From Shewanella waksmanii ATCC BAA-643 (GTDB lineage: Bacteria; Pseudomonadota; Gammaproteobacteria; Enterobacterales; Shewanellaceae): a DNA stretch of 64,000 bases. Of the stretch, positions 48,525 through 51,218 are shown piece after piece. Each line of letters opens with the position of its first letter. Positions within the stretch are counted from its first letter, which is position 1. Position numbers and translations under genes: made by a program. The stretch covers positions 1 through 64,000 of the forward strand of contig NZ_JAEH01000006.1 of assembly GCF_000518805.1 (NCBI RefSeq), read 5' to 3'. The notes under the pieces were generated by a model. It saw only the letters and a list, made by a program, of their open reading frames with translations, ran no database searches and was not told where the DNA came from.

Positions 48525-49190
48525 ATGAGTAAAATTGACGAGTTAGTCTTTCTGCATCAAGTGGCAGCGCCTTGCCATTTAGCAGTACTGGCCGAGTCTA
48601 TCGGTCTAAAAACACGGATTGTTAAGCAAGTTTCAGAGCTTGATCCTGAGCGGGATAATAATAGCTTTTATCTTATCGCCCAAAAAGGGGCGGCATTAGA
48701 CAATAAAGGAATCCCTTTATTAGCCTCTCGATTGGTGCCTCATGTGCCCGTTGCGCTATATCAAGTGGAGCGAGATACTTTAGAAGCCGAATCAGCATTA
48801 CTGCTCGGTATTCGAGGCTTACTGTATGCCGATCAGCGCATGGATCTATTATTAACCGGTTTGCGGAAAATGGTAGGCGATGAGCTTTGGTATGATAGAA
48901 CGTTGATCTCTAAAATGTTTCGTCAGCTAGTTAAACGGTTGGATGGTGCTAATGACTTTTCCCAAGATACGGTAGCGATGTTGCAAATGCTCACTGGTCG
49001 AGAGAGAACTATTATTCAGCTAGTTTCTAGCGGTGCTAGAAATAAAGAAATTGCGCATCGCTTATGTATCAGTGAACATACTGTTAAAGCACATATTTCT
49101 TCTATTTTTAGAAAAACACAATCACGTAATCGAGTTGAGTTATTACGCTGGGCACAAACTTATCAAAGTCATTTCGAATTGTGCTCTTAA
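48525..49190 (+). CDS. csgD: CsgD-like LuxR-family regulator
   Basis: A 221-residue transcription factor. The N-terminal 140 residues form an atypical receiver-like domain (HLAVLAESIGLKTRIVKQ, LLLGIRGLLYADQRMDLLLTGLRKM) and the C-terminus is a LuxR helix-turn-helix (LTGRERTIIQLVSSGARNKEIA, SEHTVKAHISSIFRKT). This is the CsgD layout, and the position next to the curlin genes supports it. The ATG follows AGGGAGAG. It converges with csgA rather than being divergent from csgBA as in E. coli. Confidence 0.8.
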   Translation: MSKIDELVFLHQVAAPCHLAVLAESIGLKTRIVKQVSELDPERDNNSFYLIAQKGAALDNKGIPLLASRLVPHVPVALYQVERDTLEAESALLLGIRGLLYADQRMDLLLTGLRKMVGDELWYDRTLISKMFRQLVKRLDGANDFSQDTVAMLQMLTGRERTIIQLVSSGARNKEIAHRLCISEHTVKAHISSIFRKTQSRNRVELLRWAQTYQSHFELCS

Positions 49191-49210
49191 TAGTCACTTA
49201 TTTTTAAATT

Positions 49211-49239
49211 AAAAAAGGGAGCATTTGCTCCCTTTTTTA
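49211..49239. terminator. Bidirectional terminator between csgD and csgA
   Basis: AAAAAAGGGAGCA pairs with TGCTCCCTTTTTT (49211-49239) with A and T runs on both sides. Confidence 0.92.
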
Positions 49240-49255
49240 TTGTTGATATATTGAC

Positions 49256-50776
49256 TTAGTTTTGAATAACAGTCGCGGTATTGAAGTCACCCATTTGGGT
49301 CACGCTGATCATGTTTTCAGTACCTGTCTGAGAACCCATCACTAGGTTATCATTACCGGTTTGCGACACAGTTAAGCTGTTGTTGTCACCAACTACGGCA
49401 AACTCAGCAGTACCGTTATCACCGCCAACCCAGTTACCATCACCAAGTTGGGTAATGTTGGCGTAGTTTTCATCGCCGCTGATGAGCAAGTCAATAACGT
49501 TCAAGTCACCCGTTTGCAGGGTATCGACTTCAACATTGAGGTCGCCAGCTACAGTGACAATTGCTTCATTCTCATTGCCAAATTGCTCTGAAGTAATGAC
49601 ATTATCAAACCCTTCAGCAACCACTTCAGTGTAGTTTAAGTCACCTTCTTGCTCGACATTGATCTCATTGCCATCTAATACTGCAAAAGCAACGATTTGG
49701 TTATTGTCACCAGTAGAAACCAGAGTTAAATCATTTTCGTCGCCGTAAACACCAAATGTAGCAAAGTTAGTGTCACCAGTTTGGTCTAAATCTATCGTGT
49801 TCTCATCACCCCAAACTTGGAATTCAGCGCCGTTGGTATCGCCAACTTGGTCAATCGTGATGGTATTTTCACTGCCTTGTACATCAGCAATTAAGATATC
49901 GCCAATAACGTTACCATCACCATTTTGGGTAATTGTCACGTCATTGCCATCGCCGGCTGTAAACTCCATAAACGCCAGGTTTGAATTTCCATCCTGGTCG
50001 ATGTTAATTGTGTTGTCATCACCGACTAAGGCATAAACCAAACCGAGGTTTGAATCACCAACTTGGTTTACATCAAAGGTATTATTGTTACCATCTACAC
50101 CTTGAACAGCGCCACCGTTAAAGTCACCTTCTTGGTAAATAGTGACATCGTTGTTATTACCTAGGTTAGGTGTAACCAATAAAGATACCATGCCGCCTAA
50201 GTTGTCATTACCAATTTGAGTAATGCTACCGTCGTTATTGTCACCCTCTACCAAGAACAAAGCTTCGTTATTGTCACCTGCTTGATCAACAACAGCGGTG
50301 TTGCTATCACCAATAAGGTCAATGTCTGAGGTATTTGTCACGCCAACCTGTAACACATCAACGCTGTTTTCATTACCAATAACATTGGCATCAGATTGGT
50401 TCCAAAAGCCTGTTTGATCAGTGATTGCTTCGTTGCCGTTGCCTTCAATGTCGATGCTTGATACATGCCAATCATCAACTTGGTCAACTTCAACGTTGTT
50501 ACTTTCACCTTCAGATGTTACGTAAGCTTCATGCCATACACCATCTTGAGTAATCGTAGCTGTTTGGTCGTCACCAGTTTGGTCAACAGTGGTGATGTTT
50601 AAATCACCTGTCTGGGTAACCACAACTTCTTGGCCAACAACAGCGGCATCAGCTGCGACTGAAATTGTCTGATTGATGGTGGCTTCGTTATCTGAAGCAG
50701 CAAAAGCTGATGCAGACATACCGATGCTTGCGGTAATAGCTAACGCGATAATAGACTTCTTTGCTTGCGATCTCAT
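49256..50776 (-). CDS. csgA: Large CsgA-type curlin major subunit (about 20 repeats)
   Basis: A 506-residue amyloid fibre protein, secreted. A Sec signal (residues 1-26, ending AFA-A) precedes about 20 curlin-like repeats of 22-23 residues with the core x-Q-x-G-x-x-N (for example TQTGDLN, VNQVGDSN, IDQVGDTN, TQMGDFN), each alternating with an asparagine-containing strand (GDNNEA, GNGNEA). CsgA of E. coli has five repeats in about 150 residues. Unlike that protein, this one is strongly acidic. GGGAG lies 6 bases before the ATG at 50776. It follows csgB by 13 bases. Confidence 0.9.
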   Translation of the reverse strand: MRSQAKKSIIALAITASIGMSASAFAASDNEATINQTISVAADAAVVGQEVVVTQTGDLNITTVDQTGDDQTATITQDGVWHEAYVTSEGESNNVEVDQVDDWHVSSIDIEGNGNEAITDQTGFWNQSDANVIGNENSVDVLQVGVTNTSDIDLIGDSNTAVVDQAGDNNEALFLVEGDNNDGSITQIGNDNLGGMVSLLVTPNLGNNNDVTIYQEGDFNGGAVQGVDGNNNTFDVNQVGDSNLGLVYALVGDDNTINIDQDGNSNLAFMEFTAGDGNDVTITQNGDGNVIGDILIADVQGSENTITIDQVGDTNGAEFQVWGDENTIDLDQTGDTNFATFGVYGDENDLTLVSTGDNNQIVAFAVLDGNEINVEQEGDLNYTEVVAEGFDNVITSEQFGNENEAIVTVAGDLNVEVDTLQTGDLNVIDLLISGDENYANITQLGDGNWVGGDNGTAEFAVVGDNNSLTVSQTGNDNLVMGSQTGTENMISVTQMGDFNTATVIQN

Positions 50777-50789
50777 TGGACGCTCCCTG

Positions 50790-51218
50790 TTAATATTGAG
50801 TTATAGTGATTGCGGCATTATCTGCAATCTGTTCAATTGAAAAATTCGCACTTCCGAGTTGGTTGAGCTGGACTACATTGCCGTCACCCACTTGAGTGAT
50901 GTCGGCCTGATTTGACCACCCAACTTGCAAAAGCTGTACTTCATTACCACTACCGTATTGGTGAACATTGGCTTGATTTTCAGCACCAAATTGCAAGGTC
51001 GCATTGGTATTATCATGGCCAGATTGCAACATTTCCGCGTGATTGCTATAGCCAAGTTGCATCAGGCCAATGGCGTTATCTCTGCCGCCCTGCTCAAGCA
51101 ACACTTGGAGAGTAATGGGAAGTTCGCTGACTTGATTGGCTCGAATATCATTAGCGTACAAGTCAAAGGTCGACATAAGGAGTACAAAGCTAACAACGCT
51201 TTTTATTAAAGCAGACAC
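50790..51218 (-). CDS. csgB: CsgB-type curlin nucleator
   Basis: A 142-residue exported protein with a signal peptide (1-22) and about five curlin repeats (LEQGGRDN, MQLGYSNHA, LQSGHDN, LQFGAENQA, HQYGSGNEV, TQVGDGN). CsgB nucleates CsgA at the cell surface. It starts with GTG at 51218, six bases after AAGGAG, and is the first gene of the csgBA operon. Confidence 0.87.
   Translation of the reverse strand: MSALIKSVVSFVLLMSTFDLYANDIRANQVSELPITLQVLLEQGGRDNAIGLMQLGYSNHAEMLQSGHDNTNATLQFGAENQANVHQYGSGNEVQLLQVGWSNQADITQVGDGNVVQLNQLGSANFSIEQIADNAAITITQY

Follow-up and report, generated by a model that had tools for sequence, protein, structure and literature searches.

Curli of Escherichia coli are encoded by csgBAC and csgDEFG, with a CsgA of 5 repeats. 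Outside this model CsgA can be much longer. The accessible portions of two papers give ranges of 4–62 (PMC10192328) and 3–52 (PMC12822426) for its repeat number, and that of Dueholm et al. 2012 lists CsgA homologues of up to 529 aa with 22 repeats and places the Csg proteins of Shewanella in two distant clusters (PMC3521004). According to the same portion of the latter paper csgC is found among Gammaproteobacteria only in Enterobacteriales and Aeromonadales, and it is therefore not defining for the wider curli family. A long acidic curlin, R15.5 of Pontibacter korlensis, is described in the available part of PMC10192328: it has 15.5 repeats, 20% Asp+Glu and a pI of 2.98, and it polymerises in vitro.

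Here we analyze a curlin locus in a 64,000-nucleotide stretch of the Shewanella waksmanii genome (the window). Based on computed gene identities, gene layout, both csgEFG sets of the genome, a predicted all-beta fold and genus-wide conservation, we read it as the intact, vertically inherited first of two curli systems, in the split layout that is usual for the genus; VpsT/CsgD-like regulation, export through CsgG and seeding by CsgB are added to it from known curli biology. We assign this reading a probability of roughly 0.87.

The curlin locus and its regulator

The features of the locus are collected in Table 1. An initial annotation of the sequence had described a curlin locus with csgBA and a csgD-like gene converging on it, and the searches bear this out. 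CsgA matches the Pfam family Curlin_rpt (PF07012) at E 7.3e-69 in 14 stretches and CsgB at E 1.1e-11. The csgB gene is intact and lies in tandem 13 bp upstream of csgA; its product contains 8 QxGxxN motifs and scores 50 bits with the NCBIfam CsgB model, below the cut-off of 165. The CsgB–CsgA order, the curlin repeats, the CsgE/F/G exporter and a CsgD-like regulator are shared with E. coli. In contrast to E. coli, csgD is convergent and unlinked from csgEFG, csgEFG is located far from csgBA, and csgC was not found. As for the hairpin between the regulator gene and csgA, the whole scan for terminator-like sites, this one included, returned 3 sites where shuffled sequences averaged 3.1, and the promoter scan returned 7 where they averaged 10.

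Table 1. Features of the curlin locus in the window
Feature	Position	Strand	Description
csgD-like regulator, VpsT/CsgD kind, LuxR-type HTH	48525-49190	+	221 aa; reading frame
WYDR motif of the regulator	48888-48899	+	residues 122-125
13-pair hairpin, T runs on both strands	49210-49239		between the convergent regulator gene and csgA; possible shared terminator
csgA, major curlin subunit	49256-50776	-	506 aa, about 20 repeats, acidic; reading frame and PF07012
csgB, minor curlin/nucleator	50790-51218	-	142 aa, GTG start; PF07012

The regulator carries a GerE domain (PF00196, Pfam E 5.4e-17). Its top NCBIfam row is CsgD, but the score of 69 bits is below the cut-off of 250, and the nearest PDB sequence is VpsT (E 3.4e-19). 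Identity to 8 orthologues ranges from 74 to 84%. Within the WYDR motif W and R are invariant in nine orthologues, two of which have WFDR or WYER in its place. The basis of comparison is the c-di-GMP motif of VpsT, which we take to be the counterpart; by this analogy WYDR may bear on c-di-GMP binding.

The CsgA protein

CsgA contains 36 GxxN half-repeat motifs, of which 18 have the form QxGxxN. The 479 residues past residue 27, where the leader has ended, fit about 20 repeats of about 23 residues each, and they include 18.2% Asp+Glu and neither Lys nor Arg, in line with the long acidic protein noted initially. AlphaFold2 predicts an all-beta structure (pLDDT 88.9, pTM 0.84). Comparison of the CsgA sequence profile with the PDB gave 8c50 at E 1.3e-41 and 8enq, a major curlin subunit, at 3.1e-5, while a fold search of the PDB with the model returned nothing at E ≤ 0.001, its top rows being alginate lyases. 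The entry 8c50 is probably R15.5 itself. Pontibacter korlensis belongs to a different phylum from the window organism. Its R15.5 resembles the CsgA studied here as a long acidic curlin; it is classed as centrosymmetric in the accessible part of PMC10192328, whereas the half-repeats here look unequal, as judged from the QxGxxN form in 18 of 36. Named relatives from a CsgA contig scan were two Alkalimonas (35 and 39%, best-segment identity) and one Dokdonia (28%).

The length had also been called exceptional. This is not supported: 68 of 129 genus genomes carry a CsgA of this type (253.9 bits or more for their best match to the window CsgA), and the accessible portions of PMC3521004 and PMC10192328 contain homologues of 22 repeats and of as many as 62, as well as an acidic one. 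The long acidic CsgA is thus an already known kind, and the locus is ordinary but well conserved.

Conservation of the repeat array

A comparison of repeat number had been proposed along with the initial annotation. Across the 31 species compared (a non-random sample of the window's own sequence, G008 and the 29 others with the highest scores) CsgA measures 495–506 aa, with 54–61% identity to the window protein. A free variation of repeat number in this family was therefore rejected. Over 48 genomes the length ranges from 478 to 527 aa, with one outlier, G115, at 604 aa and with several long copies. In this genome three tandem long CsgA-like genes lie downstream of csgB, off the usual site (L182); G116, G119 and G121 also show several CsgA matches, in one place each.

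We compared 17 repeat units with those of 30 species. In 401 of 510 comparisons a unit was matched best by its counterpart at the same position, where 1 in 17 would be expected if position were irrelevant. Units at the same position share a mean identity of 0.57, those at different positions one of 0.30; these scores rest on a MAFFT alignment, which is itself biased toward pairing like positions. The identity of repeats at the same position indicates that the rungs of CsgA are not freely duplicated or levelled. The gene is also constrained overall, with pN/pS of 0.10–0.27 in 13 pairs and dN/dS of 0.04–0.134 in the 11 pairs with computable dS. The array thus looks position-locked throughout the genus, unlike the repeat number in Burkholderiaceae, which the available text of PMC12822426 describes as “seemingly random”.

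Many position-specific invariant residues lie beyond the Gln/Asn ladder. Such residues would be in keeping with a soluble or surface beta-solenoid with some role other than that of a curli subunit, and the accessible portion of PMC3521004 mentions four large adhesion proteins of Shewanella that contain curli-like repeats. Yet csgB is located directly upstream, the CsgD-like gene is convergent, and csgF is present in all 68 genomes with this CsgA, so that we regard a role outside curli as scarcely credible.

Two csgEFG sets elsewhere in the genome

The initial annotation had found csgE, csgF, csgG and csgC missing from the flanks and placed the export parts elsewhere. Both statements hold. In a whole-genome search the window contig (C5), on which csgA lies 49 kb from the end at the window start, gave no CsgG or CsgF match, so csgEFG does not lie just outside the segment. 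CsgG was detected twice, on contigs C14 and C1 (E 5.2e-81 and 2.4e-80, both above the Pfam cut-off), CsgF likewise twice above the cut-off in the same places, and both sites show the row csgE-csgF-csgG. The idea that export genes are missing from the genome was accordingly rejected. CsgC (PF10610) had no match in the genome, with a positive E. coli control. The CsgE of C1 matches the NCBIfam CsgE model at E 8.3e-11, below the cut-off, and that of C14 was identified by its BLAST grouping with relatives. Both CsgE/F/G sets stay below the NCBIfam cut-offs. On C1 all three genes are intact frames, more than 110 kb from either contig end; on C14 the nearer end lies 23 kb away from the set.

The CsgG proteins of C1 and C14 share 49% identity. 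A CsgG tree of 81 of 82 loci (in the one omitted, the CsgG match covered no more than 150 residues) separates two clades with 100/100 support, with the C1 protein in the type-1 clade and the C14 protein in the type-2 clade. The NCBIfam CsgG model gives 308 bits for the type-2 and 222 bits for the type-1 protein of this genome. Within its clade the C1 protein groups with CsgGs that adjoin a long csgA (22-row group, support 86/88). No curlin is encoded in the stretch examined around the C1 csgEFG, and a repeat search likewise detected none on C1. The C14 locus (L003:8984-12055) also carries a CsgD-like gene and a CsgB-like curlin of 177 aa, the sole curlin there, with no long CsgA alongside.

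A further curlin-repeat protein of 890 aa with 42 GxxN motifs is located on contig C39 (L013:8981-11653) with no csg genes alongside. Its middle repeats contain Asp runs (QDDDN), and AlphaFold2 predicts an all-beta structure (pLDDT 78.4, pTM 0.61). Relatives of 765–814 aa occur in G073, G074 and G086, with identical neighbors in G073. This giant curlin may be a moved or replacement subunit of the C14 locus.

Gene layout across the genus

The window CsgA was matched in 97 of the 129 genus genomes at E ≤ 1e-5. Among the 68 with a CsgA of the window type, type-1 csgEFG adjoins csgBA in 19, with csgF convergent and 1.1–2.0 kb from csgA. The remaining 49, our own genome included, are split: csgF is more than 93 kb away in 22 and on another contig in 27, the latter being separate contigs of draft genomes. 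The layout is therefore not odd for the genus, nor is it unique to the window. We examined the csgA region of 24 other split genomes: 23 have csgD-csgA next to the serA/ygfZ neighbors of the window, and in 19 of these 23 neighbors match on both sides (also PaaI, kat, nupC or deoD); the exception is G115.

None of the seven linked genomes examined has the window neighbors around csgA. In four of the seven csgD is located between csgEFG and csgA, and in the other three (G073, G124, G074) it was not found within 19 kb. In G074 two overlapping fragments match type-1 csgG, as a frame shift would produce (L106:9827-10578), and type-2 csgF is present too. The gene order at the C1 site, ALDH-TetR-csgGFE, recurs in G065 and G008 and was not found around csgEFG of G042, G120 and G106. 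Both window sites are common to distant split species, yet the C1 CsgG groups with those of linked ones, from which we infer that the split layout is older than the linked one. For the Shewanella systems in the available part of Dueholm et al. 2012 csgD is likewise apart from csgEFG; two operons are divergent there, whereas here csgEFG is unlinked, and in the linked relatives it is convergent on csgBA (PMC3521004).

A csgB-like frame is found upstream of csgA in all 41 scanned relatives with type-1 csgEFG, 40 by flank scan and G115 separately; the flank scan row for G115 was a wrong pick (a 567-aa frame), and the true csgB there is 52% identical.

The large distance between csgBA and csgEFG might suggest a decaying remnant, cut off from its exporter and out of use. 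Intact frames, a near-fixed length, low dN/dS and a split site shared by many species all speak against decay, which we consider very improbable.

Relatives with csgA and type-2 csgEFG alone

Seven split genomes (G063, G046, G094, G027, G037, G091, G087) have type-2 csgEFG only. Querying whole genomes with the C1 CsgG returned a single CsgG in each, at 51–53% identity, compared to 80–89% in three controls (G042, G065, G102). At the usual site all seven retain csgD1 (82–84% identity) and a csgA1 without breaks. None has a csgB-like frame upstream of csgA1, and no orthologous csgB1 was found when their whole genomes were queried with the CsgB of the window: the best matches, 1e-10 to 3e-6, are short system-2 curlins or CsgA repeats, compared to 1e-33 to 3.6e-38 in the same controls. 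In 4 of 5 pairs from the seven, csgA1 shows dN/dS of 0.085–0.134, the fifth pair being saturated; in other genomes the values are 0.040–0.119 in 7 of 8 pairs, with one saturated. The csgA1 of the seven genomes is thus under purifying selection. Each of them has a system-2 locus in which a curlin of 179–186 aa lies beside one of 410–529 aa. Since the seven cluster closely in the CsgG tree, the seven losses possibly represent one event.

These genomes suggest that the long CsgA in the seven relatives is able to use the exporter and nucleator of the other system, and on a plain reading system 2 would export CsgA1 there and might seed it as well. For the window genome one could likewise propose that the C14 csgEFG and the 177-aa CsgB-like curlin are the main partners of the long CsgA, with the C1 set serving something else or being a remnant. 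The seven relatives, with csgD1, csgA1 and type-2 csgG and without orthologous csgB1, point in this direction, as does a C14 locus without an adjoining long CsgA of its own. Against it, type-1 csgEFG adjoins csgBA in 19 genomes, and csgE, csgF and csgG on C1 as well as csgB1 are intact here. We judge service mainly by C14 to be unlikely.

Proposed function and implications

We prefer the reading of the window locus as system 1 of two. Its functional steps (regulation, export, nucleation, fibre formation and the choice of exporter) are carried over from known curli biology. By analogy, the VpsT/CsgD-like regulator probably turns on csgBA. CsgA would be exported in the unfolded state through the CsgG pore, aided by CsgE and CsgF, and the type-1 set on C1 is the most likely source of these three proteins. 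CsgB would then seed CsgA, which is expected to fold into a 20-rung acidic beta-solenoid, stacked end to end.

We tentatively propose, at somewhat less than even odds, that the long CsgA is common to two distinct curli systems. It would have outlived its own nucleator and exporter in one lineage, where it was kept as second subunit of the other system; mixed fibres of two long curlins would be made through one CsgG, and in the window genome both exporters could serve CsgA. In the open-licence literature we found no paper on a long CsgA outliving its own csgB and csgEFG. Lineages with csgA and without the matching csgB and csgEFG provide a natural test of the specificity of curli exporters and nucleators, and the main interest of the locus lies in this hint that curli subunits and exporters can be swapped between systems.
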